From contig QNZW01000059.1 in NCBI GenBank assembly GCA_003978375.1, positions 1 through 13,538 of the forward strand: a DNA stretch of 13,538 bases, given 5' to 3'. The position numbers and the translations under genes were made by a program. This stretch comes from Sulfurovum sp. (GTDB lineage Bacteria > Campylobacterota > Campylobacteria > Campylobacterales > Sulfurovaceae). Positions 2 through 13,308 of the stretch are shown in pieces; within the stretch, counting starts at the first letter, position 1, and every line of letters begins with the position of its first letter. The notes under the pieces are model-generated. The model saw nothing but the letters and a program-made list of their open reading frames with translations. It was not told where the DNA came from and ran no database searches.

Positions 2-2128
2 TTGCTTCTTCATGCAAGTACATTTCCAAAAACAACTTCTTTAGATGGTAAGTGGCTCTACCACACGCAACAGCTTACAAGAAGTAGTCACTATGTTTAC
101 CAGTTTGAAGGCAATGAACCATCTATGCTATTGCCTTCAAACTGGTATAAACAGGGTGAAAATCATGCAGGTATTATGTGGTTTCAACGTCGCATAAACC
201 TCAAAGATTTGCCTTTGGCTTCTCATCATTTTTTAACATTTACAGGTGTAGATTATCTTTGTGATATTTGGGTCAATGGGCAGTATGTTGGTTCACATGA
301 AGGCTATTTTCAGACATTTTCTTTTGATATTACGCCTTATTTACATAGAGGAGATAACAGCATCAAAGTAAAGGTGAATTCACCTTTAGAGAACTATCCT
401 GAACACTACAGTCTACACAAAACACTGCTTCGAGGTATTTTTTCTCACCATGATACACGTCCTGGTGGTGCATGGTCTGCTGAAGGACAGGACAAAAATT
501 CTGGAGGTATTTGGAACCATATTTCCATCCAAAGTTATCAAGATTATCGCTTTTTAAAACTTAGAGCCACGCCTCATATACTCAAAAATAAGGTATCGCT
601 TGATATTGATGTAAATCTAACTAAACTCACACAAAAATCACATGCATCCTTTTTGTATTATACCCACAAAAGCGTACAAAATCCTCTATTAAAAGTAACA
701 CTCACTCCGAGTAATTTTAAAGGAAAAATATTTTCTAAAGATTTTAAGATAAAAGATCAAAACAATATTCACTTGCATCTCATGCTTAAAGAGGCAAAAC
801 TTTGGTACACGCATGACAGAGGATTTCCTCATCTTTATACCCTAAAACTTCAACTAGCAAACACGCAAATACATCAAGAGATAGGCTTTAAAAGCCTTAC
901 ACAAAATCAAAAGAAAATCTATCTTTTAAACGGTACACCTCTTTATCTTAAGGGTACAAATTATATCTCTAGTCAATATATGAGTGAAATGGATGAAAAA
1001 GCATTCAAAAAAGACTTAGAACTCATGAAAGATGCACATATCAACACCATACGTGTCCATGCACATATAGAGCCTAAACGTTTCTATGCACTTTGTGACA
1101 AAATGGGATTTTTAGTATGGCAAGATTACAATCTACAATGGGGATACATACAAAGCGAAGCATTTCAAAAAGAGGCTACTAAACAAGCCAAAGAGATGGT
1201 AGATATGCTTTATAATCATCCAAGTATTTATGTGTGGTCCATGCATAATGAGCCACCATGGAACTCAGAATGGATGAAATGGAAATATCCAGACTATAAT
1301 GCCAGTATCAATAAAAAATTAGATGATGCACTCTATACAGCAATACAAGCATACGATACACATCATATAATTAAAAAACTCTCTTCAAACCTAGAACATC
1401 CTTGGTTTGGCTGGTATAGTGGCAAGTATCAAGATTTTGCAAAGCCTTCTAAAGTAACTACTATTAGCGAATATGGAGCACAAGCCATTCCTCGTCTCTC
1501 GTCACTTAAAAAATTTATGCCACAAAAATATCTTGTACCCAAAAGCAAAAAAGCAAAAAAAATGTGGGAGTATCATAACTATCAATTCGACTGGAGCGAA
1601 AAAAACGGCGTCAAATTCAAACAAACAACCCAACAACTCATAGATGATTCTCAGACCTATCAAGCCAAGCTCATTAAGTATGCTACAGAGATGTTGCGTA
1701 TACAAAAATATACAAAAACTACAGCTATTTTTCAATTTATGTTTAATGAGGGTTGGCCCTCTATGAACTGGGGCATTGTAGATTATTATCGTCATGAAAA
1801 AGCAGGATATCATGCCCTTAAAAAAGCATTTGCACCAATCATTGTCGTAGCCAAGCAAACCCCAAATAATGTGTTAGAGTTTTATGTTGTCAATGACAAA
1901 CTAGAACCCATTAAAAACGCTTCACTAAAAATTACTGTGAGTATTCCTAATGAGAAATTAGGCTATCTGTATTTTGTGTCTATGCCAAAAGACAGCACAC
2001 AAAAGATTGCACAAATTTCTCTCAAACACGAAAGTACCATTGATATGCAGCTTCGTATAGGCAATAATATTATTAGCAACCATTACACATTTACACCTTA
2101 TGATACAAAAAAGAAAGCAAACAGATGA
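2..2128 (+). CDS. Glycoside hydrolase family 2 protein (beta-galactosidase/glucuronidase/mannosidase-like), 5' partial
   Basis: This is a retaining exo-beta-glycosidase of the GH2 type. Residues are counted from the first codon in the window. The start LDGKW (14-18) is typical of the beginning of the GH2 sugar-binding jelly-roll domain (about 10-180). An immunoglobulin-like sandwich follows (about 185-300), then a TIM barrel (about 305-615) and a short C-terminal beta domain. In the barrel, MHNEPP holds the expected acid/base Glu417 after Asn416, and ISEYGAQ holds the expected nucleophile Glu490, so the enzyme looks active. The first codon is TTG at the very edge with no visible ribosome site, and the next Met is residue 42, so the true start and any signal peptide probably lie upstream. 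Its last bases overlap the start of the glycosyltransferase gene (ATGA), which implies translational coupling. The sugar specificity cannot be read from sequence; trimming of the operon's own glycan is an inference. Confidence 0.9.
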   Translation: MLLHASTFPKTTSLDGKWLYHTQQLTRSSHYVYQFEGNEPSMLLPSNWYKQGENHAGIMWFQRRINLKDLPLASHHFLTFTGVDYLCDIWVNGQYVGSHEGYFQTFSFDITPYLHRGDNSIKVKVNSPLENYPEHYSLHKTLLRGIFSHHDTRPGGAWSAEGQDKNSGGIWNHISIQSYQDYRFLKLRATPHILKNKVSLDIDVNLTKLTQKSHASFLYYTHKSVQNPLLKVTLTPSNFKGKIFSKDFKIKDQNNIHLHLMLKEAKLWYTHDRGFPHLYTLKLQLANTQIHQEIGFKSLTQNQKKIYLLNGTPLYLKGTNYISSQYMSEMDEKAFKKDLELMKDAHINTIRVHAHIEPKRFYALCDKMGFLVWQDYNLQWGYIQSEAFQKEATKQAKEMVDMLYNHPSIYVWSMHNEPPWNSEWMKWKYPDYNASINKKLDDALYTAIQAYDTHHIIKKLSSNLEHPWFGWYSGKYQDFAKPSKVTTISEYGAQAIPRLSSLKKFMPQKYLVPKSKKAKKMWEYHNYQFDWSEKNGVKFKQTTQQLIDDSQTYQAKLIKYATEMLRIQKYTKTTAIFQFMFNEGWPSMNWGIVDYYRHEKAGYHALKKAFAPIIVVAKQTPNNVLEFYVVNDKLEPIKNASLKITVSIPNEKLGYLYFVSMPKDSTQKIAQISLKHESTIDMQLRIGNNIISNHYTFTPYDTKKKANR

Positions 2129-3882
2129 ATAATGAACTCTACTTTTTAGAAGAAAAATTTGACTCCAGAGTACCTGAGCCCCCACAACAACAGCCAGAGT
2201 GGGTACAGCTTAGTTTCCAATTTTTCGGTACAGTTGCTATAATGCTTGGTTTTTGGTACCTCTATTATAGATGGACTGATTCATTAAATATGGATGCTTT
2301 ATGGTTTGCTATACCTTTGGCAATCGCTGAGACGATGATGTTTATAGGTACCATACTCGTAGTCATCAACTTTTGGAAAATTAATGATACTCCCAAACAA
2401 TCCCCTCCTCTAAGTAAAGATGAAATTGTTGAAGCATCCCTAAAAAAACAGTATCAAAATCAAGGTATTAAAATTGATATTTATATCCCAGTATTTAATG
2501 AAGACCCAGAACTGGTACGCCAGACCATAAAAGCTGCTAAAAAAGTAAAAAAACTACCCTCTTGGGATGTGCAAATTTATCTACTTGATGATAGCAATGA
2601 TGAAAATATGACACGCATGGCAAAAGAGGAAAACATCCCACAAATCCTACGCCAAAGCTCTAAAGGACGCAAAGCAGGTGCCATTACAAAAGCAATGGAT
2701 GATACACTGGGTGATTTTATTGTTATTATAGACTCAGATACACGGTTGTTTGAAAATATTTTACTCCATACACTAGGCTATTTTAAAGATGACTCTGTAG
2801 CATGGGTACAAACACCTCAATGGTTTTGTGACCTTACCACAGGTGAGAATTTAGATGTACACTGGTATCAACGCTATGGTAAATTAGGAGAACTCACTGC
2901 CAAAGGCATACAAAAACTTGTAGGCAAGATTAAAGTAGGTGAAGATGTCTTTGCCAATGACCCTGCTGTCTTTTTTGATGTGATTCAAAGAAGACGTAAC
3001 AACTATAATGCTTCATTTTGTTGTGGTGCCACCTCTATACATAGAACTTCAGCCTTGCGTCGTGTTGCCATTACCAGATGGGCAAACCGAATACAAAAAG
3101 CCAAAAACAAAAAAGAAGCCATCGATGAGATTGATGTAGAATATATCTCTTATCATACTTCTGAAGATATCTATACGTCACTTTTGGTTCATGCACATCA
3201 ACCCAAAAAATATACTTCTGTACTTCATCCAGATGTAGAATCAAAAATGCTCTCACCTCTTGATCTTGGTACTTGGGCAATGCAACGTTTTAGGTATGCA
3301 GGAGGGACAATAGACTTGGTCACCAAAGAGTTTTCAAGATTTTTTAAAAAAGGCTTGTCTCCAGGTCAAAAATTAATGTATTTTTCTACATTTTGGTCTT
3401 ATACAGGTGCAATATGGCTTATGATTTTACTAGCTTCTCCTGTCATATTTATGTTTACCAACATCCCTCCTGTGCAAAGTTATTCTATGGATTTTTTTGT
3501 ACATCTTATTCCTTTTTTATTTTTTAACCAATTGGCGCTTATGATTGCAACATGGGGTATCAACTCCAACCGTGGAGGACAATTTTTTATTGCTATTTTT
3601 CCTATCGTATTAAAAGCTTTTTGGGATGTGTTACGTCGTAAACCCATACGTTTTGTTGTTACTGCAAAAACTGCAAAATCGGGTAACTTTTTATCACTAG
3701 TACGTATACAAATTGCCATCATAGTCATTTATATCATTGCGATTATTTATGCTACTACGATGTTACTTATAGGTGAGCGTACCTATCTGACGGGATATGC
3801 AGTTAATCTTATGTGGTCATTTTTTAATATGACTGCACTTATGGCTATTGTAAAAGCCGCACTTTATAAATTTAAAGGATAA
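2125..3882 (+). CDS. Cellulose-synthase-like processive glycosyltransferase family 2, inner membrane
   Basis: This 585-residue membrane enzyme probably polymerises a beta-linked glycan from nucleotide sugars and passes it through the inner membrane, as BcsA-type synthases do. Two N-terminal membrane segments (about 29-50 and 58-83) precede a cytosolic GT-A domain (about 115-395). The processive GT2 motifs are in order: IYIPVFNED (119-127), LLDDS (153-157), DSD (203-205), SED (346-348) in place of TED, and QRFRYAGG (387-394) as a QxxRW variant with Tyr for Trp. Further membrane segments lie at about 415-443, 458-478, 485-500, 528-550 and 555-580. A FVVTAKTAKSG stretch (510-520) resembles the interface segment after the catalytic core in BcsA relatives. 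There is no C-terminal PilZ domain, so direct c-di-GMP activation is not evident. It starts within the stop of the GH2 gene and is followed four bases later by the DUF3131 gene. The product is unknown; cellulose, another beta-glucan or an aminoglycan are possible. Confidence 0.9.
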   Translation: MNNELYFLEEKFDSRVPEPPQQQPEWVQLSFQFFGTVAIMLGFWYLYYRWTDSLNMDALWFAIPLAIAETMMFIGTILVVINFWKINDTPKQSPPLSKDEIVEASLKKQYQNQGIKIDIYIPVFNEDPELVRQTIKAAKKVKKLPSWDVQIYLLDDSNDENMTRMAKEENIPQILRQSSKGRKAGAITKAMDDTLGDFIVIIDSDTRLFENILLHTLGYFKDDSVAWVQTPQWFCDLTTGENLDVHWYQRYGKLGELTAKGIQKLVGKIKVGEDVFANDPAVFFDVIQRRRNNYNASFCCGATSIHRTSALRRVAITRWANRIQKAKNKKEAIDEIDVEYISYHTSEDIYTSLLVHAHQPKKYTSVLHPDVESKMLSPLDLGTWAMQRFRYAGGTIDLVTKEFSRFFKKGLSPGQKLMYFSTFWSYTGAIWLMILLASPVIFMFTNIPPVQSYSMDFFVHLIPFLFFNQLALMIATWGINSNRGGQFFIAIFPIVLKAFWDVLRRKPIRFVVTAKTAKSGNFLSLVRIQIAIIVIYIIAIIYATTMLLIGERTYLTGYAVNLMWSFFNMTALMAIVKAALYKFKG

Positions 3883-3886
3883 TATC

Positions 3887-5206
3887 ATGGATAAATATAC
3901 CCATTTAAGACGTGCTAGACACCATATCGTATTTTTACTTGCATTGATTTTTGGCTCTGTGCTTATTTACTTTTTAAATGGTTTAGATATGAGAAAACAA
4001 GGATTAGGCATGATTACATTTAAGCACCCCATCGCTCCTGAATTAAAAATAACGACCTCTGCACTCACCAAAGAAGAAAAAGCTGCAGCACAAACAGCAT
4101 GGAAGTATTTTCAAAACAATTACAATGAGGCAACAGGCTTGGTAAACTCTGTAGATAATTACCCTTCTACTACACTTTGGGATACAGGGAATTATATGAT
4201 GGCACTCATCGCCGCAGCACATTTACAGCTCATAGATAAATCCACCTACAACACACGCATGAAAACCTTGCTCAACACTTTGAGCAAGATAGAGCTATAT
4301 AACGGTGTACTCCCCAATAAAGTATACAATACACACACCTTAGCCATGACAAACTATGAAAACAAACCCAGTAAAAAAGGGATTGGCTGGTCTGCGATTG
4401 ATATAGGACGTTTACTTATTCCTTTGGCATATTTAGAATTTTATCAAAGTGATTTGACTGATGAGATACGAGCCATACTTTCACGATGGAATTTTAAAAA
4501 TATGACTAAAGAAGGAGCACTTTATGGGACGGTTGTAAAAAAATCAAAAGCCTCTTTACTCCAAGAAGGTCGCTTGGGTTATGAACAATACACCTCTAAA
4601 ATGTTTGCGAGTTTTGGTATAGATGTAACCAATGCACTGCGTTATGATGCCTACCTAGAATTTATCGATTTGGAGGGGATTAATATTCCTTATGATAAAC
4701 GTGACAAAAAAAGTTCTGGTGCAAACAACTATGTATTGATGGAGCCTTATATGCTAGATGGCTTAGAGTTTGGCTGGGATTATTTTTCTAAAGAGTTCTC
4801 TTATAGACTCTATAAAGTACAAGAACAACGCTACAAAAATACAGGTATTCTAACTGCCATCACTGAAGACCATTTAGATCAAGCACCCTACTTTATTTAC
4901 AATACTATTTTTGTCAATAAAAAGGCATGGGTAGCCATAGATGAAACAGGGAAAATGCATAACAATATGAAACTTTTAAGCACCAAAGCTTCTTTTGCTA
5001 TGGATGCACTTTATCATAGTAGTTATACCAAAAAACTTATCAAAAAAATCTCCACGTTGGCAAGTGAACGTGGGTGGTATACAGGCATTTATGAAAAAAG
5101 TAAAAAAGTAAATACCTCTCTAACGTGCAATACCAATGCTGTGATTTTGGAATCACTCATGTATAAAGAGACTGGACCACTTGTGAGAATGATCAAAGAC
5201 AATTAA
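3887..5206 (+). CDS. DUF3131 domain protein with N-terminal membrane anchor
   Basis: This 439-residue protein has a basic N-terminus, one hydrophobic segment (about 12-31) that reads as an uncleaved signal anchor, and a DUF3131 domain (about 62-435) facing the periplasm. The helix-rich pattern suggests an alpha/alpha toroid of the kind found in many glycan-active proteins. Positions shared with the first DUF3131 domain of the larger downstream protein include W98-D99, LPNKVYNT (142-149), GWSAID (167-172), E227 in LQEG, GYEQY (231-235), E286 and ITEDHLD (325-331), all candidates for a sugar-binding or catalytic groove. The ATG at 3887 is preceded by AAAGGA (3874-3879) at good spacing, inside the end of the glycosyltransferase gene. 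DUF3131 has no established activity that I can assign here. Its place next to a synthase suggests work on the nascent chain in the periplasm, as hydrolase, transglycosylase or guide. Confidence 0.85.
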   Translation: MDKYTHLRRARHHIVFLLALIFGSVLIYFLNGLDMRKQGLGMITFKHPIAPELKITTSALTKEEKAAAQTAWKYFQNNYNEATGLVNSVDNYPSTTLWDTGNYMMALIAAAHLQLIDKSTYNTRMKTLLNTLSKIELYNGVLPNKVYNTHTLAMTNYENKPSKKGIGWSAIDIGRLLIPLAYLEFYQSDLTDEIRAILSRWNFKNMTKEGALYGTVVKKSKASLLQEGRLGYEQYTSKMFASFGIDVTNALRYDAYLEFIDLEGINIPYDKRDKKSSGANNYVLMEPYMLDGLEFGWDYFSKEFSYRLYKVQEQRYKNTGILTAITEDHLDQAPYFIYNTIFVNKKAWVAIDETGKMHNNMKLLSTKASFAMDALYHSSYTKKLIKKISTLASERGWYTGIYEKSKKVNTSLTCNTNAVILESLMYKETGPLVRMIKDN

Positions 5207-5217
5207 AGGGAAACACA

Positions 5218-6432
5218 ATGAACACACTACCAAAACTTACACCTATGGGAAACTTTTTAACACCCTACCACTACCCTATTAATGAAGGAAAACGTGATTT
5301 GCGTATTGACTTTATTCGAGGATTTGTAATGCTTTTACTCATAACTGTGCACCTTAATATACCTTCTTTGTATAATTATATTGCATGGGAGCGATTTGGT
5401 CTAGTCACTGGTGCAGAAGGGTTTGTGATGCTCTCTGGTATTGTTTTGGGGATGCTTTTTAGGATGCGTATGAGACATGATAGCTTTGGTTTTACCATTG
5501 ACAAACAGTATAACCGTGCTTTTTTACTCTATCGTACCTCCTTGTTTGTGATACTTTCTGTAGCCCTTATCAACCTCATTCCCTCCATCGATGCCCATGT
5601 AGCCATGACATTTACCACCTATAGTGGCAAAGTATACAACCTCTACCCCGATCTTTCTAACTTTGGTCAATATCACGATAAAATCATGGCAAAATTTCTT
5701 CTATTACGCTATGGGCCTCATCAGTTTCAAATTTTGGGACTTTATGTTATTTTGCTTCTTTTTTCTCCTTTTGTACTGTGGCTACTGAGCAAAAACAAAC
5801 TAAATGTTGTTTTAGGGTTAACCTGGATTGTCTATTTTGCAAACAATGGATTTCATGTACGCCCTACGGGTGCACAATTTGAATATGCTTTTCCTATTTT
5901 AACATGGCAAATTCTTTTTGTACATGGTTTAATTATCGGATATTATCGTAATGAATTATGGAATGTATTTCAAACAAAACAAGGAAAGATGATTTTTTTT
6001 GTGTTGCTGATTGTCTTTTTTATTTTTTTATTTTTTACCTACAACAATCCTTTAGATCAAATTCCTGCTTATTTACGATTGCAGATGATTGATCCTGATA
6101 CATTTAGAAGTATCTATAAAGACTTTTTTGATAAAAACACCTTAGGCATAGGAAGACTACTCAATGATTTTGTAGTATTTGTTGTCTCCTATGCTGTACT
6201 CTCTTATGCATGGAAACCTCTAAATCGTATCTTTGGATGGTTTTTTGTTCCTATTGGTCAGGCTTCACTTTATGTCTTTATTTTGCATGTTTATGTCTGT
6301 ATAGTAATGGCAAATATTCCTATGTTTAATGAGGGAAATTTTTGGGTAAATACCTTAGGTGTTACTCTGGTATTTATGTTTATGTGGCTCATGGTTAAAA
6401 ACAAAGTTGCCTACAACATCATCCCAAGATAA
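5218..6432 (+). CDS. opgC: OpgC-like membrane acyltransferase
   Basis: This 404-residue integral membrane protein matches the OpgC family, known for transferring succinyl groups to osmoregulated periplasmic glucans. The N-terminal signature RDLRIDFIRG (26-35), a His in the first membrane segment (H45 in TVHL) and AEGFVMLSG (66-74) are the hallmarks visible here. About ten hydrophobic segments follow, consistent with an acyltransferase-3-like channel enzyme. The ATG at 5218 has AAAGGGA upstream (from 5206), only 11 bases after the previous stop. No opgG or opgH is present in the window; the partner synthase here is the cellulose-synthase-like gene, so the acceptor is more likely an exported polysaccharide than a classical periplasmic glucan. 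The acyl group (succinyl, acetyl or other) is not predictable. The family call is confident, while the symbol reflects family membership rather than proven orthology. Confidence 0.82.
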   Translation: MNTLPKLTPMGNFLTPYHYPINEGKRDLRIDFIRGFVMLLLITVHLNIPSLYNYIAWERFGLVTGAEGFVMLSGIVLGMLFRMRMRHDSFGFTIDKQYNRAFLLYRTSLFVILSVALINLIPSIDAHVAMTFTTYSGKVYNLYPDLSNFGQYHDKIMAKFLLLRYGPHQFQILGLYVILLLFSPFVLWLLSKNKLNVVLGLTWIVYFANNGFHVRPTGAQFEYAFPILTWQILFVHGLIIGYYRNELWNVFQTKQGKMIFFVLLIVFFIFLFFTYNNPLDQIPAYLRLQMIDPDTFRSIYKDFFDKNTLGIGRLLNDFVVFVVSYAVLSYAWKPLNRIFGWFFVPIGQASLYVFILHVYVCIVMANIPMFNEGNFWVNTLGVTLVFMFMWLMVKNKVAYNIIPR

Positions 6433-6442
6433 AGTGATAGAT

Positions 6443-7939
6443 ATGCTTGGTAAATATATACTTTTTTTTCTACTGACGTTTATACCATTATTGGCTACAC
6501 ATACTTTGGTATGTGTAGGTACACCCAAAACATCCTTGCCAAAAAGATGCACCAAAGATGACAACCATACCAAAATCATAAGACTCTCTCCTGATGCAAC
6601 GTATGACACTTCTATTTTTACAATACAAACCAAACTTAGGACTCTCATCAATCAAGATGAAAACATCTCTTTAGCCTTGCTTTCACAAGGTATGTCAGGC
6701 ACACTGACTGCTATTGCTCAAAACAATCTTCTTCCTTATTATCGAGAACATATTAAAGGACTAATCGTAAAAGATTCTCCTGCAATACTTACTAAAATGT
6801 GCTCCAAAAAAACCACCAAAACCATACCAAAACCATGCCAAAACATAAAAAAATTCAATACCACACTCCAAGAAAAAGCTTCTCTTGATGAGGTGACAAA
6901 AGCACTTTCACCTGCTTTACAAATGGATTGGTATTATCCAGAAATGTTACTTGCTGATACCAACAGTACCAACAAAAATATCCAACATGAGTCATGGATA
7001 AATGCCTTAGAAAATAATGGCATACCTTACAGAATATCTAAAAAATTTGATACAGAAAACATAGACTATTTCATTAAAATGCTTCCTTCATTTTTGAAAC
7101 TACATCAGACAAAAATACCCAAATACTATGGACCAATCTTACGTTTTCATATAGGTAAAATACTCTATGCATCCAAAAGACCGGTACAGGTACTCTCAAA
7201 CATACCTTATGGAAAGTCAAACCAACAAAACTATGATGTCTATTTTGAAAATAACCGTTCTAACAACCCTTTGCTAATATATGTGCATGGGGGAGGATGG
7301 ACAAAAGGAGACAAAAGTAGCTTTGCAGATTTTTCTAAACAATATGCCAACAAAGGTTACACTGTAGTCTCTTTAAATTATAGATATTTACATCTGCCAC
7401 AAGTAGGTATGAAAGAGATGATATCAGATGTAAAATCAGGCATAGAAAAAGCCTTACATAATGCTACTATATATCATGCAAATCCTAAAAAAGTAGTAGT
7501 CATGGGTGAGTCTGCTGGTGCACAGCTTCTTTTTATGGCAGTGAGCAAGTTAGATAAAAACAAAATCAGTGTTGCTATTTTTAACAGTATGACCACCAGT
7601 CTATATAAACATTCTGAAAAAAAGCAACAAAGGCTCTCTGGCATCAAAGATGCTAAACAACGCAAAGTATGGCTCAATGCCTATTCGCCTATTTCACATT
7701 TAAACCATTATTATACACCTACTCTTGTACTACATAGTTTAGATGATAAAGTTGTCTCCTCTTCACACCTACAAGTCCTTGATTTGCAAAGTGTTATTCA
7801 CAATCAAAACATCACGCCACTTTGGATATCGTATGGGGCACATCCTCTTGCTCCAGATACCAAATCAATGCAACTAGGCTATCAAGATATAGAAAAACAT
7901 ATCGATGCATTTATTGCAAAGATATTAAAAAATATTTGA
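6443..7939 (+). CDS. Secreted alpha/beta-hydrolase esterase with an extra N-terminal domain
   Basis: This protein of about 498 residues is a likely periplasmic carbohydrate esterase or deacylase. The frame is open further upstream to 6359, but ATG 6443 is preferred: it lies 10 bases after the opgC stop and gives a clean signal sequence (MLGKYILFFLLTFIPLLA). The C-terminal half (about 255-495) is an HSL/BD-FAE-like alpha/beta hydrolase: oxyanion motif HGGGW (282-286), nucleophile Ser357 in GESAG, probable acid Asp435 in LDDKVV and His467 in YGAHP. The N-terminal half (about 45-240) resembles a second, degenerate hydrolase: SQGMSG (81-86) looks like a nucleophile elbow with Gly where Ser should be. 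Cysteines at 24, 36, 120 and 132 could form disulfides. The adjacent acyltransferase suggests that this enzyme removes or moves acyl groups on the same polymer; that is inference. Ribosome site before 6443 is weak. Confidence 0.82.
   Translation: MLGKYILFFLLTFIPLLATHTLVCVGTPKTSLPKRCTKDDNHTKIIRLSPDATYDTSIFTIQTKLRTLINQDENISLALLSQGMSGTLTAIAQNNLLPYYREHIKGLIVKDSPAILTKMCSKKTTKTIPKPCQNIKKFNTTLQEKASLDEVTKALSPALQMDWYYPEMLLADTNSTNKNIQHESWINALENNGIPYRISKKFDTENIDYFIKMLPSFLKLHQTKIPKYYGPILRFHIGKILYASKRPVQVLSNIPYGKSNQQNYDVYFENNRSNNPLLIYVHGGGWTKGDKSSFADFSKQYANKGYTVVSLNYRYLHLPQVGMKEMISDVKSGIEKALHNATIYHANPKKVVVMGESAGAQLLFMAVSKLDKNKISVAIFNSMTTSLYKHSEKKQQRLSGIKDAKQRKVWLNAYSPISHLNHYYTPTLVLHSLDDKVVSSSHLQVLDLQSVIHNQNITPLWISYGAHPLAPDTKSMQLGYQDIEKHIDAFIAKILKNI
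6495..6518. repeat. Perfect inverted repeat (10-bp stem, 4-base loop)
   Basis: CTACACATAC (6495-6504) and GTATGTGTAG (6509-6518) are exact reverse complements around a TTTG loop. The repeat lies about 50 bases inside the esterase gene, in the part coding for the end of the signal sequence. No T-run follows, so it is not a typical terminator. It could form an mRNA hairpin near the gene start, or be a chance palindrome in coding DNA. Confidence 0.5.
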
Positions 7940-8022: not shown

Positions 8023-11000
8023 ATGTTACTGAAAATATTATCTTTTTTTGTCATCATTTTATTTTTATTCTCTAGTCCTCTGTATGCTTTTTTTGAAAAA
8101 GAGGCACCCTCTTCTTCTGTAGATACAAATCAAACCTTACAAGATGATCCTTTTGCGAAGATACGATTGAAAGAAGGGAAATGTATAGAGCCTTCTGAGA
8201 TGGTTAGTCCGTGTGAGCTTCGTTGTGCACCTACAGAAGAAGAGCTAAAAATGGCACGTATTGCTTGGAAGTATATAGAAAACAACTTTGATAAAAAAAC
8301 TGGACTTACCGCAGCTGCACACAAGTACCCATCGGCTGCAACATGGGATTGGGCAAATGCCGTATATGCCATCTATGCTGCACTCAAATTTCATCTCATC
8401 ACCCAAGAGCGTTATGAAAAGATGATGAATACTTTTTTAAAGACCATGCAAAAGATGGAACTTTTTAACAATGAGCTCCCCAATAAAACCTATAACACAA
8501 AATCTGCAAAAATGACTGACTATGTCAATAAAATACAAAAAGAGGGTACAGGATGGTCAGCAGCTGATTTAGCAAGACTACTGTCTGCACTCAATGTAGT
8601 AGAACAGTGCGAAGAAACCCTTGCCCCACAGATAGAAAAACTTACTTTACGATATCGATATTGTCGTGCATTGAGTGTAGAAGGTGATCTCTATGGAGGT
8701 ACATACAAAGACGGAAAACTACATATACTTCATGAAGCACTTACAGGCTATGAAGAGTATCTTGCAAGAGGCTATGAATTATGGCACAACAATGCCAGTG
8801 AGGCTAGACAATATAAATTTGTAAAAGAGGTGGATGTCTATGGCATAAAAATACCTACAGATACGCGCCCTTTTTTCTCTAACTTCGTAGAGAGTGAGCC
8901 TTTTTGGTACCTAGGATTTGAATATGGAGTAGATGACAATGAATCTGGTAGATACATTCATAATATTTATCAAGTACAAGAAGAGCGTTATAAGCATACA
9001 GGACAACTTACTGCAGTCACTGAAGACAACATAGATACACGCCCCTACTTTCTTTTTAATACCATCTATACCCATGGTGAGGCATGGAAGACGATCAACC
9101 AAAAGGGTGAAGACTACGATGAATTCAAGACTGTCAGTAGTAAAGCAGCCATAGGAATGCGATATCTTTTTGATACCCCTTATGCCAACAAAGTTTTCAA
9201 TTATGTCAAAAACAATTATGATCCCAAAAAAGGCTTTTATGCAGGAATATACGAGAAAAGACCTGGACAAAATAAAGCAATGACACTCAATACCAATGCC
9301 ATTATCTTAGAAAGTATGCTCTCAGCCAAAATGGGTCCTTTGCAAAAGCTCAATCTTTCTAAAAAACGAACTATCTATAATCACTATAGAAATACAGTCA
9401 ATAACTTTAGATGTCTTCCTACAGAAACTGAGATGTTAGTACTTGAACCCTATGCACCTCAAATGGGTGATATCAATCGAAGCCATGACATACAAGATGC
9501 CAAAATTGCTTGGAGATATTTTGAAAACAATTATTATCCCAAAACAGGGCTGGTTAGTGGGTTAAACAAATATAAAATTATCAAACCAGAGCATATAGGC
9601 AAGACGATTATGGCAAGTATCGCTGCGTATCATCTTCATATCATATCTGCAGATGTATTTCATAAACGCATGAGTAGGCTTTTAGAGACGCTTGGAAAGA
9701 TGAAGCTTTATCATCATGAATTACCCAACCTTTATTACGATGCAAAAACAGGCAAAAGAGTAACAAAAGCAGGAAAAGTAACCCAAACAGGTAATGGATG
9801 GAATCTCTATTCTATCGCTCAAATGATGACAGGACTATATTATTTGGAGCAAGGGTATCCAATATATAGAGAAAAAGTTTTTTCTATTGTATCTAAGTGG
9901 CAGTTTAAAAGGGCTCTTTTAGATAAGAGGATGCAAAATCGTTACTTTGATGGCAAAAGCAAAGGAGGCTTTAAACCTGTTCATGACCCTGCAAAAGAGT
10001 ATTATATTTTTAATGCACTAAGGCTTTTTAATATAAAAAGCTATAGCCATCTTTATGATGAAAGAAATCTTGATTATAAGGCAGTCTATCACTATGAAGT
10101 ACCTATGGGATACAAAGATAAAATAACCAACGCAGAGAGCTATTTATGGGGGATGATTGAGCATCCTTATTATTTAAAATATAAACACTACGCTTCAAAT
10201 ATTTATTTGGCACTCAAAGACAGATATATCCAAACAAATAAACTAGTCACTTCTACAGAAGAGGCTTTAGATAGTAGTCCATATTGGATACAAAATACTA
10301 TATATAACCACGGAAAACTCTGGAGTGACTTAAACAGAGAAAATAAATCTGTTGCAAAAAAAAATATACTCAGTACCAAAGCAGCTTTTATCTATGATGC
10401 TTTATATGGCTATACTGACACGTATGCAAAAGCATTAAAGCAAAGGATACAAAAGAACTATGATAAAAATATGGGGTGGTATGGAGGCATCTATACTCAC
10501 TCAGATAAACCCAATAAATCTTTAAATATATTGACCAATGCTGCGGTATTGGAATCACTTTATTATAAAAAAGTAGGAAATCTATACTATGCAAAAAAGA
10601 AAAAACTTTACGATAAAATCGCCCTTCATCCTGTAAATATACCCCTTGCATATAGCATACAAAGTCAACCCATAGCACTACGTTTTGACGCACAAAAATT
10701 GATGAATTCACTTCCTGATCAGTCACAAATTATTCGTGTAGAACGCAAAGAAGAAAATTTTGTGGTCAATGTGGGTGCATTTAAAGACAAAAATAAAACC
10801 ATAGCCTATGCAAAAAGTTTAGAAAAATTGATGCCTAAAGCAAAAGTGATTCAAACGTCTATTCATTCAAAAAATTTCTTATTGGCAAATAGTTATTATC
10901 GTTATGATTATCATATTCCATATGCCAATAAAAACATTGACCAAACAAACAAACCTTATGCCATTTATGCAAAAAAAGTAAAAATAAAACGCAAACAACT

Positions 11001-11115
11001 TACTGAAAAAAAAAACTCCTCGAAAAAACCCTTAAACAAAGACGCCTCGCCCAAAGAGCCTGGGAAGCAAAAGCATGGAAAGAAAAAAGATACTACCTTG
11101 AAGAAAAAAGAATAG
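8023..11115 (+). CDS. Secreted protein with two DUF3131 domains and a SPOR-like segment; likely frameshifted 5' part of a longer gene
   Basis: As read, this frame gives 1030 residues. ATG 8023 is chosen because it gives a textbook signal peptide (MLLKILSFFVIILFLFSSPLYA, cut after LYA) with AAGGGA at 8005-8010; in-frame ATGs at 7939 (overlapping the esterase stop) and 7990 are alternatives. DUF3131 domain 1 (about 72-440) keeps WD (108-109), LPNKTYNT, GWSAAD, a Glu before GYEEY, and TEDNID. Domain 2 (about 488-853) has the fold pattern but loses the WD pair and the Asp of WSAAD. Each domain is preceded by an RC.PTE motif (C68, C464). Residues 911-948 (VVNVGAFKDKNKTIAYAKSL) look like a SPOR-type unit. 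The last 33 residues after the A10 run (11006-11015) are low-complexity lysine-rich and probably out of frame. The natural product likely continues into the barrel-coding frame downstream. Periplasmic glycan processing or chain guidance is inferred. Confidence 0.82.
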   Translation: MLLKILSFFVIILFLFSSPLYAFFEKEAPSSSVDTNQTLQDDPFAKIRLKEGKCIEPSEMVSPCELRCAPTEEELKMARIAWKYIENNFDKKTGLTAAAHKYPSAATWDWANAVYAIYAALKFHLITQERYEKMMNTFLKTMQKMELFNNELPNKTYNTKSAKMTDYVNKIQKEGTGWSAADLARLLSALNVVEQCEETLAPQIEKLTLRYRYCRALSVEGDLYGGTYKDGKLHILHEALTGYEEYLARGYELWHNNASEARQYKFVKEVDVYGIKIPTDTRPFFSNFVESEPFWYLGFEYGVDDNESGRYIHNIYQVQEERYKHTGQLTAVTEDNIDTRPYFLFNTIYTHGEAWKTINQKGEDYDEFKTVSSKAAIGMRYLFDTPYANKVFNYVKNNYDPKKGFYAGIYEKRPGQNKAMTLNTNAIILESMLSAKMGPLQKLNLSKKRTIYNHYRNTVNNFRCLPTETEMLVLEPYAPQMGDINRSHDIQDAKIAWRYFENNYYPKTGLVSGLNKYKIIKPEHIGKTIMASIAAYHLHIISADVFHKRMSRLLETLGKMKLYHHELPNLYYDAKTGKRVTKAGKVTQTGNGWNLYSIAQMMTGLYYLEQGYPIYREKVFSIVSKWQFKRALLDKRMQNRYFDGKSKGGFKPVHDPAKEYYIFNALRLFNIKSYSHLYDERNLDYKAVYHYEVPMGYKDKITNAESYLWGMIEHPYYLKYKHYASNIYLALKDRYIQTNKLVTSTEEALDSSPYWIQNTIYNHGKLWSDLNRENKSVAKKNILSTKAAFIYDALYGYTDTYAKALKQRIQKNYDKNMGWYGGIYTHSDKPNKSLNILTNAAVLESLYYKKVGNLYYAKKKKLYDKIALHPVNIPLAYSIQSQPIALRFDAQKLMNSLPDQSQIIRVERKEENFVVNVGAFKDKNKTIAYAKSLEKLMPKAKVIQTSIHSKNFLLANSYYRYDYHIPYANKNIDQTNKPYAIYAKKVKIKRKQLTEKKNSSKKPLNKDASPKEPGKQKHGKKKDTTLKKKE
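11006..11015 (+). other. A10 homopolymer: candidate frameshift or phase-variation site
   Basis: Ten consecutive A bases follow TACTG. In the upstream frame they read as GAA AAA AAA AAC; in the downstream frame the codons AAA CTC CTC GAA follow, and that frame has a stop (TGA 11004-11006) just before the run. A -1 slip, or a tract of 11 or 8 A, joins the double-DUF3131 ORF to the barrel ORF. A runs of this length are known slippage sites for polymerases and ribosomes. A homopolymer sequencing error gives the same picture. Confidence 0.75.
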
Positions 11116-11141
11116 CTGCACTCAAAGCCAAAGCATTACTC

Positions 11142-12191
11142 TTGGCTGAACAAAATAAAACAAACCCTCTAGATGCTAATCTTAGTAAACCAATCTCTAA
11201 GCATGAAGTCAATCAAACAGACAACAATCAAACCCTTACAATAGAAGAAGAAAATGAAGCCATAGATTTGCAAACCCAAGAGGTCTTAGATACCGTTAGG
11301 CTAGGAGAAGGTGTCAATATTTATGATGAAATTGTCCCAAAACAAAAAAAGAAAAAACACCACACAAAGAACAAAACTTGGCAAAAAAACAAACATACTA
11401 AAAAAATCACAAAACCTAAAAATAAATATGCCCTCAAAGATTTTTCAAAATGGTTTAAATATTCTTTTAGTTTTAATACCTCTTTTGCCAACTGGAAGAG
11501 CTATCATGACAGCACAAGAGAATATCTCAAAGGTACCATTATCATAAGTCCTATAAAATATCTCTTTTTGAGTGTAACTTTTAATAAAACGATTAATCGT
11601 TATTATAATAAATATTATTCCCCTGATTTTTCTTACTCTTTTGGCTATTCTGATTGGCATCAAGACACATTTGGACTTATTTATTCAAATTATGCAGACA
11701 ATAGATTTAATCCTGATGCAAAACATAAAAGGTTTAATTTTGATGCAGGAAGCTGGGATTTGTCGTACAAAACAAAATATAAAAATCTTTATCTTTATGG
11801 GGATATTAAATATATACAAAAATACAAAAAAGGATACATTTCTCTTAAAGCCAATAAAGTCATAAAATCAAATAAGTTTATTAAGAAATATACGCTTTCT
11901 GCAAAATACAAACGATATATTCATATCAATCAAGACCAAGTCACATTTAGTGCACGGGGCTACCTTTATAAAAAATTTTATGTTGCAGGATCATTGTATC
12001 TCTATTCTCACTTAAGCAAACAAACCTATTTGGAGCCAGATTATGCCTATACATTTGGCTGGAGAGACACAAGAAAAGGCAAGTTAAGCATTATGTATTC
12101 AAACTATTATAAACCTACTAGATTTAACTGGAGACCCAAAGAAGGACCAAGTTTTGATAGAGGTTCAGTATCACTTTATCTGAACTTCTGA
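11142..12191 (+). CDS. Outer-membrane beta-barrel; likely C-terminal part of the upstream DUF3131 gene
   Basis: The listed start is a nominal TTG with no ribosome site; the same frame is open from 11007 and its only ATG lies near the very end, so this is probably not an independent gene. Upstream of the TTG the frame encodes a charged helix (11016-11150, rich in Leu, Ala, Glu, Lys, Arg, for example AWKEKRYYLEEKRIAALKAK). Next come an acidic Asn/Gln/Glu-rich stretch, a basic linker (about residues 67-100 from the TTG) and a domain of about 250 residues made of alternating aromatic strands (for example KYSFSFNTSF, KFYVAGSLYLYS). It ends SVSLYLNF, with the terminal Phe of a BAM signal. About a dozen strands are plausible. 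Two halves repeat the pattern PD(F/Y)xYxFG...YSNY...RFN. There is no signal peptide, which again requires fusion to the upstream ORF. An export porin role like that of BcsC or AlgE is inferred. Confidence 0.75.
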   Translation: MAEQNKTNPLDANLSKPISKHEVNQTDNNQTLTIEEENEAIDLQTQEVLDTVRLGEGVNIYDEIVPKQKKKKHHTKNKTWQKNKHTKKITKPKNKYALKDFSKWFKYSFSFNTSFANWKSYHDSTREYLKGTIIISPIKYLFLSVTFNKTINRYYNKYYSPDFSYSFGYSDWHQDTFGLIYSNYADNRFNPDAKHKRFNFDAGSWDLSYKTKYKNLYLYGDIKYIQKYKKGYISLKANKVIKSNKFIKKYTLSAKYKRYIHINQDQVTFSARGYLYKKFYVAGSLYLYSHLSKQTYLEPDYAYTFGWRDTRKGKLSIMYSNYYKPTRFNWRPKEGPSFDRGSVSLYLNF

Positions 12192-12282: not shown

Positions 12283-13308
12283 GTGGATAAAAAACCTTAT
12301 GTAATGGCTATTGACGATACACTCTATAATTTGGAAGTATTACAGCATATTTTTAGAGATATGGATATAGAAATAGCCTGTGTCCCATCTGGTTCACAAG
12401 CACTGGAAAGTATTGAGAAAAGAACCCCAGATTTGATTCTTTTAGACATCATTATGCCTGAAATAGATGGCTATGAAGTATGTAAAATACTTAAAAAAAA
12501 CCCAAAAACCAGTGGTATACCTATTATTTTTCTTTCTGCACTCAATGATATTGACAATAAAGTAACAGCCTTTGAAGTCGGTGGTGTGGATTATATTACC
12601 AAACCTTTTAACACCTTAGAAGTCATTGCTAGAGTTAAAACACACTTAAAGCTACATTATATGCTTGAAGAGATGAATGTACTTCTAAAAGAATCATTTC
12701 ATGAAATTTATACTCCTTTAGGACTTATAAAAAGTTCTTTGTCTTTGCAAACACTCTCACAGGGTGATAACGAGCATCTTCAAAATATACGGGCTTCTGT
12801 GCAATCTTTACACTCAATTTATGAAGATCTTTATTATGCTATTAAAAAAGAGGTACGAGAGTATCCTGCTGAGTGGATTGATTTGGAGTATTTTTTAAAA
12901 AATAGAATCACACTCTTTCAGGCACAAATGGAGTATAAAAATTTAACCTATACACTGCATTCAGAAATAGACTCACCGATGATTCATATCAACGCAACTG
13001 AACTTGAAAGACTCATAGATAATTTACTCTCAAATGCTCTTAAATATGCCAACAAAAATAGTGAGATCACTATAAAAATTATCCCCTCAAATGACAAAAT
13101 AAAATTAATCATTACAAATAAGTCTAAAACCATTGAAAATCCAAAAAAACTTTTTGATAAGCTCTATCGTGAAGATCACTCTGTGATGGGATTGGGAATT
13201 GGATTAAGCATTGTCAAAAAAATATGTGAAAAACATAACATAGATATAGAGGTAGAGTCACACGAAAACCAAACAAGTTTCATACTTTCTTATAAGGAGA
13301 ATACATGA
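12283..13308 (+). CDS. Receiver-histidine kinase fusion (REC-HisKA-HATPase)
   Basis: This 341-residue cytosolic signalling protein starts at GTG 12283. An N-terminal receiver domain (about 5-122) has the acidic pair D11-D12, the phospho-acceptor D55 in LLLDIIMPE, S85 and K107 in TKPF, so it looks functional. A short kinase core follows: H-box with H140 in FHEIYTPLG, N-box LIDNLLSNALKYA (N247, N251), LFDKLYRED (290-298) and GLGIGLSIV (303-311). The usual DxGxG box is replaced by ITNKSKTI (277-284), so ATP binding may be altered. No membrane segment is present, so input must come through phosphorylation of the receiver or through a partner. It has its own promoter after a 91-base gap and overlaps the next response regulator by four bases. 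Control of the upstream polysaccharide operon is possible but shown only by proximity. Confidence 0.9.
   Translation: MDKKPYVMAIDDTLYNLEVLQHIFRDMDIEIACVPSGSQALESIEKRTPDLILLDIIMPEIDGYEVCKILKKNPKTSGIPIIFLSALNDIDNKVTAFEVGGVDYITKPFNTLEVIARVKTHLKLHYMLEEMNVLLKESFHEIYTPLGLIKSSLSLQTLSQGDNEHLQNIRASVQSLHSIYEDLYYAIKKEVREYPAEWIDLEYFLKNRITLFQAQMEYKNLTYTLHSEIDSPMIHINATELERLIDNLLSNALKYANKNSEITIKIIPSNDKIKLIITNKSKTIENPKKLFDKLYREDHSVMGLGIGLSIVKKICEKHNIDIEVESHENQTSFILSYKENT

Follow-up and report, generated by a model that had tools for sequence, protein, structure and literature searches.

The locus considered here raises the question of whether two overlapping open reading frames (ORFs) are two genes, one damaged gene, or a single gene that is read in two frames. 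It lies at positions 8023–12191 of a 13,538-nucleotide (nt) stretch of Sulfurovum DNA (referred to throughout, at its full length, as the window), which comes from a metagenome-assembled genome (MAG) of 1.58 Mb that is 79% complete, and all of the features described below are on its forward strand. The upstream ORF encodes a protein with two DUF3131 domains and the downstream ORF a predicted outer-membrane beta-barrel. The reading that we regard as likely, on the sequence evidence set out below, is that they constitute one gene expressed by programmed frameshifting, yielding short and long forms within a polysaccharide synthase/export operon. Members of the family occur in sulfur-oxidizing and related bacteria, the related records being named Sulfurovum, Nitratifractor, and Hydrogenimonas.

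The upstream, zero-frame ORF (8023–11115), which would by itself give the short product, opens with a probable signal peptide, MLLKILSFFVIILFLFSSPLYA (8023–8088), recognized from the sequence and a hydrophobicity scan. The Pfam DUF3131 profile (PF11329) matches it in two stretches (625.9 bits against a cut-off of 20.3; E 2.8e-188), the first domain covering residues 77–434 (8251–9324) and the second 9490–10590, the limits of the latter being approximate and set by eye. A SPOR-like stretch follows (10750–10869), which scores 16.3 bits with the SPOR profile (PF05036) in the window protein and 25.3 bits in the relative P0069, the only one of nine proteins scored to pass the cut-off of 21. The run of ten adenines (A10; 11006–11015) is read in the zero frame as GAA AAA AAA AAC, with a slippery heptamer in the zero-frame phase, and beyond it the zero frame becomes a Lys-rich tail (11016–11115) that extends for 97 nt before its stop codon, TAG (11113–11115). 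The -1 frame is open from 11007 to 12191 (394 codons) and overlaps the upstream ORF by 109 nt. Its first start codon of any kind beyond the run is the TTG at 11142–11144, which the ORF finder gave as the start but which has no Shine-Dalgarno (SD)-like motif and is judged not to be the real entry, and its first ATG is found near its end, at about codon 363. A -1 shift at 11006–11015 would join the two frames into a protein of about 1389 residues. On such grounds a preliminary description, made from the letters of the DNA alone, had proposed one coding unit split at the A run, and its account of the frames, the starts, and the Lys-rich tail has held up.

The AlphaFold model of the barrel frame consists of a long helix (residues 2–51; 11010–11159), which starts at the slip site and passes straight across the TTG, followed by 14 barrel strands (11454–12185). 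The helix ahead of the TTG, suspected earlier, is thus predicted, and with confidence (block pLDDT 88–96 for residues 1–50), and the predicted barrel has the antiparallel strands and C-terminal aromatic residue of an outer-membrane beta-barrel. Its highest VIA Z is to OmpG and CymA, and a barrel profile found no match among PDB sequences up to E 1. An AlphaFold model of the upstream ORF from its single sequence was poor (pLDDT 33.7) and was set aside.

Relatives show the same split. When the upstream ORF served as query in a protein search, with residues 480–1030 scored, 60 proteins were found, of which 53 (P0056–P0108, including P0056, the window's own) form the family set, P0109–P0115 being left out by score. 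Of these, 51 end without a barrel (P0070 is labeled partial, and P0089 and P0101 are short) and two, P0099 and P0104, are fused. A search with the barrel frame found 55 proteins of 235–444 amino acids, longer fused proteins lying outside its length limits. Barrel DNA is patchily distributed: at genus level 5 of 78 genomes have it and at family level 14 of 175, and samples of 398 genomes from the order and 397 from the phylum gave 11 and 8, respectively; among the 175 family genomes, all 13 with a long DUF3131 match also have barrel DNA. Viral contigs gave 56 pattern matches, none of them a confirmed relative. The barrel-encoding places examined number 17, in 16 genomes, with identical junctions taken to mark duplicate loci; they comprise 12 that are intact and split, two in-frame fusions, one decayed copy, and two fragments. 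The 12 split loci (the window, G030, G059, G194, G234, G522, G521, G524, G427, G081, G171, and G320) span six genus codes and three family codes, and in every one the barrel frame lies at -1, with an overlap of 13–109 nt. The places in G071 and G074 and the second place in G171 were left out of these 12-locus counts; the last two are the fragments, and in G074 (L005/L028) a C-terminal barrel fragment alone remains, with what we take to be an IS3-type transposase OrfA on the opposite strand beside it. Uninterrupted homologs, to which the preliminary description had looked for confirmation of a single gene, do exist: the in-frame fusions are L018 (in G158), L021, and P0099, L021 probably being the source of P0104, and the two fused places read carry A11 (G158) and an in-frame A10 (G235). 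In a tree made by a quick method with no bootstrap, three changes are required to account for the three fused rows, and all of them fall inside a single subclade of 8 rows.

The alternative that survives best, although we consider it unlikely, is phase variation by slipped-strand mispairing, in which the length of the genomic run would drift between cells and turn the barrel on and off. Homopolymers in surface genes are described as classic sites of such variation in the part of the literature drawn on here (PMC3711429), and phase variation is also reported for O-antigen genes of V. cholerae (PMC3441752). One pair of relatives also conforms to it, since seven mismatches and a single gap, located at the run, are all that separates G158 (A11, fused) from G320 (A10, split) over 2452 nt; the run can therefore change at the DNA level, in which case slippage would continue to yield both products. 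Drift would, however, fill three states, whereas the frames are unmixed, with 12 at -1, two fused, and none at +1. The 12 of 12 against +1 have a P of 5e-4 (0.002 with near relatives merged to 10), and for one named state P is 8e-5, a generous figure as the loci are related. Apart from the one A10/A11 pair, no drift of frames was found among relatives. Fused forms make up only 2 of 53 database proteins, the zero-frame stop lies 0–4 nt after the run in 8 of the 12 split loci, and the site in G524 is just A6. Phase variation predicts a mixture of frames that is not seen, and fixed co-production of two forms therefore fits better than an on/off switch. The earlier suggestion that slippage switches between two forms therefore stands as regards the forms but not as regards on/off control, given intact splits that are uniformly at -1 and a member without a long homopolymer. 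Separately, the locus is 99.7% identical between G158 and G320 (L018 and L020) over the 2452 nt, and the DNA just downstream is 92% identical, a step that hints at recent transfer or recombination of the gene between species.

A second alternative, which appears very unlikely, is that the two parts are separate genes, the barrel being initiated alone (in the window, at TTG 11142) or by termination-reinitiation. The protein database indeed lists the two parts apart in nearly all records found, and the TTG of the window is 29 nt from the zero-frame stop. Across the 12 loci, however, the barrel-frame part of the overlap ahead of the slip site contains no ATG, GTG, or TTG, and the first barrel-frame start after the run falls 29–254 nt beyond the zero-frame stop, at a position that differs between species (in G081, inside the barrel) and in no locus with an SD-like motif. 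An outer-membrane barrel depending on the signal sequence of the upstream part had been surmised, and this is borne out in that none of the 55 barrel ORFs has a signal-peptide-like segment, taken as a hydrophobic 15-mer (mean Kyte-Doolittle hydropathy, KD, of at least 1.6) in the first 60 residues. An N-terminal hydrophobic segment is present in 49 of the 53 upstream proteins; a loose hydrophobicity rule labels 11 as signal peptide, 38 as transmembrane, and four as neither, a division between the first two that is crude and includes some labels that look wrong by eye.

The stretch between the run and the first possible start was compared in two species pairs, G522/G521 (19 codons) and G171/G320 (20 codons), and is conserved in both as barrel-frame protein. 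The proportions of synonymous (pS) and nonsynonymous (pN) differences in the barrel frame are 0.38 and 0.05 in the first pair and 0.35 and 0.07 in the second, whereas the other two frames of the same stretch show no such pattern (pS 0.22, 0.00, 0.08, and 0.19 against pN 0.14, 0.15, 0.17, and 0.12). With both pairs pooled, the barrel frame has synonymous differences over sites (Sd/S) of 10/27 and nonsynonymous ones (Nd/N) of 5/90, for which an exact test with the counts rounded gives P 1e-4. Since the available starts are distant and without SD-like motifs, the barrel frame is conserved ahead of them, its N-termini are not hydrophobic, and a confidently predicted helix spans the TTG, the simplest reading is that translation of the barrel enters from upstream. 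Least probable of all is a pseudogene or assembly error, which the incompleteness of the MAG and the homopolymer at the break might suggest but which, like the earlier caveat that the split could be only a sequencing error, is contradicted for the family by the same junction type in 12 loci (11 besides that of the window) of six genus and three family codes, by a barrel pN/pS of 0.12–0.38 (uncorrected) in four pairs, and by P0001, a separate protein record, 98% identical, that begins at the same TTG.

If one gene is read in two frames, the means of crossing between them is to be sought at the run. An A9–A11 run lies inside the overlap in 11 of the 12 split loci, and the two features looked for as marks of transcriptional slippage, an A/T run of at least about nine inside a coding region and conserved use of a second frame after it, are present here as the A10 of the window and the -1 frame of all 12 loci. 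Compared with shuffles of codon order within the linker, the actual run is located inside the overlap with greater frequency than chance would give (combined P 7e-8 for 9 of the 12 loci, G524, G427, and G081 being left out as they have no anchor motif; 3e-6 without the near-duplicate G320), with single-locus P values of 0.001–0.29. A10 is rare in the assembly of the window, occurring at two places in 1.58 Mb, and A9 matches, counted on both strands with overlapping matches taken apart, numbered among 15 genomes 8 in G059, 13 in G234, 66 in the window's own, and 311 in G081. The other A10 of the assembly (G000:C49:2207-2216, L029) is near the extended 5' end of an ORF, presumably for a nitrite/sulfite reductase, and probably upstream of its true start. 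Lys-Lys occurs within the last five residues of 45 of the 53 family proteins. In P0056–P0060, P0062, and P0087, Lys-Lys-Asn-(Ser/Phe/Tyr)-Ser is common to all at the site and the rest of the tail variable when compared by eye, as if the slip context were kept.

The member in G524 most likely uses a ribosomal signal instead, to judge from its sequence. This locus carries two A6 runs, of which the one beside the stop was used for the selection, folding, start-distance, and heptamer analyses; it reads GCA AAA AAG AAT TAG, so that the phasing of A_AAA_AAG is that reported for E. coli dnaX, and no other A_AAA_AA(A/G) occurs in phase within the upstream ORF of the locus. The proteins P0064, P0065, P0067, P0071, and P0072, among others, have Ala-Lys-Lys-Asn at their C-terminus, and P0071 appears to be that of G524 itself. 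Pairing of a hairpin starts 3 nt past the heptamer, and the 50-nt fold of -18.2 kcal/mol (z -4.1; 0 of 200 shuffles) is equaled by 0.13% of the 50-nt windows of that locus. None of the other 11 split loci reaches z -2 at 50 nt, although G059 and G234 do at 60 nt, and slightly different 70-nt windows, with six loci folded, gave z -2.9 for G234 and -2.2 for G521. In the window, no 3' stimulatory structure was found (fold z +0.9 to +1.4), and an Rfam scan of it returned no family at gathering score. Judged by these z scores, G524 clearly has a 3' hairpin, a few loci may have one, and the window has none. The signal in G524 is thus most likely one for a -1 shift of the ribosome on A_AAA_AAG, the hairpin lying 3' of it.

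Several results weigh against a single recoded gene, or against the evidence offered for it. A synonymous codon shuffle with amino acids fixed (N = 3000) yields equally long runs about as often (combined P 0.43 over 12 loci), so that run length is a result of Lys (AAA) codons and was dropped as evidence in itself; the position of the window's own run likewise does not stand out within its Lys-rich linker (P 0.29). The selection test comprises only 19 and 20 codons, and the more distant pairs G522/G524 and G521/G524 are saturated in both pS and pN. The signal of the G524 type is one DNA sequence, for which Rfam gave sub-threshold matches only, none of them a frameshift element. Near the TTG, the -1 frame of the window has one fairly hydrophobic 12-mer, IAALKAKALLLA (mean KD 1.74), which does not look like a signal peptide because two Lys lie within it. 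Finally, the copy in G071 (L003/L027) departs from the pattern, with a TAG in frame after A10 and a second shift inside the barrel, and is read, from its sequence, as decay.

The neighboring genes place the locus in what appears to be an operon for polysaccharide synthesis and export. Upstream of it on the same strand are a GH2-type glycoside hydrolase (2–2128), which begins at the contig start and may be cut; a BcsA-like GT2 polysaccharide synthase (2125–3882; E 1.1e-18 to BcsA); a single-domain DUF3131 protein (3887–5206), with one weak PDB match, to 8wy1, "Glycosyltransferase 36" (E 0.002); an OpgC-type acyltransferase (5218–6432); and a BD-FAE-type esterase ORF (6359–7939) whose true start is probably later, all assigned with Pfam. 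The order GT2, DUF3131, (OpgC, esterase), double DUF3131/barrel is found in the window and in all five loci fetched for order (L030–L034). Synthase-dependent polysaccharide export is recognized by a BcsA-like GT2 and an outer-membrane pore in one operon, and both are encoded here, the pore by prediction only; the present gene joins a periplasmic DUF3131 part, which has no TPR repeats, to the barrel beside that GT2. The c-di-GMP control domain PilZ, which is not universal, was not found on the synthase, for which only glycosyltransferase profiles matched at E ≤0.01. Directly 3' of the barrel is a response regulator joined to a histidine-kinase ATPase domain (12283–13308), and L034 has a weakly similar kinase-like ORF within the operon.

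Comparable arrangements are described in those parts of the literature on which the following comparisons draw. In C. rodentium tssM1, an A11 just upstream of the zero-frame stop is associated with short and full-length forms, the latter carrying a C-terminal domain that contacts an outer-membrane partner, and between this gene and Y. pseudotuberculosis tssM3 slippage has opposite outcomes, leading in one species to the long form and in the other to the short (PMC4256274). The present family resembles both in its poly-A run just before the zero-frame stop and its two forms, but it is non-homologous, its added part is itself a predicted outer-membrane barrel, it belongs to a polysaccharide operon, and its split is the rule across the loci found, not rare. 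Either level of slippage serves dnaX, being transcriptional in T. thermophilus (A9) and ribosomal in E. coli, at A_AAA_AAG with stimulators (PMC1088944; PMC5009743), and here too one family, with short and long products, appears to use either, G524 having A_AAA_AAG and a 3' hairpin. In those two dnaX genes, however, the long form is the zero-frame product, whereas here it usually needs the shift, a situation mentioned for dnaX of a few other bacteria (PMC5009743). Shigella spa13 and mxiE are similar in that a protein connected with a secretion system gains an extension through transcriptional slippage (PMC5009743; PMC4256274), although the proteins and the system are unrelated. No paper among the matches listed dealt with recoding of a DUF3131 or polysaccharide-export gene, which is no proof of absence.

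What the sequences show is the frames, their recurrence, the lack of independent starts close by, the conservation ahead of the first start, and the operon; we infer slippage, its level and efficiency, and a role in export along the following lines. Part of synthesis would end soon after the A run, giving a periplasmic double-DUF3131/SPOR-like short protein, which in relatives would often probably be anchored in the inner membrane. The remainder would shift to -1 and give a protein of about 1389 residues, in which a long helix leads to the 14-strand outer-membrane barrel. For the window and the other A9–A11 members, the shift would most likely arise during transcription, by slippage through which the mRNA gains one A, and in the G524 member most likely by a -1 ribosomal shift at A_AAA_AAG with its 3' hairpin. 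The long form may then serve as the outer-membrane exit for a glucan-like polysaccharide made by the GT2 synthase, and the ratio of short to long form may set the number of DUF3131 enzymes at the pore. With a probability that we place a little above even, the locus represents an exporter family in which recoding decides whether the protein is anchored in the outer membrane, the long form stretching there from the inner membrane or the periplasm, and in which the -1 transition is kept interchangeably by polymerase slippage at A9–A11, by a ribosomal shift at A_AAA_AAG with a hairpin, or occasionally by genomic fusion through one added A.

If this is true, most database entries of the family are misread, two orphan ORFs standing for one recoded gene, and cellular genes with conserved programmed frameshifting would gain a new family, an uncommon one in that a single gene seems to be served by slippage at either level. 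It would also suggest that slippage alone can set how a cell apportions its periplasmic enzyme between free and pore-bound forms.
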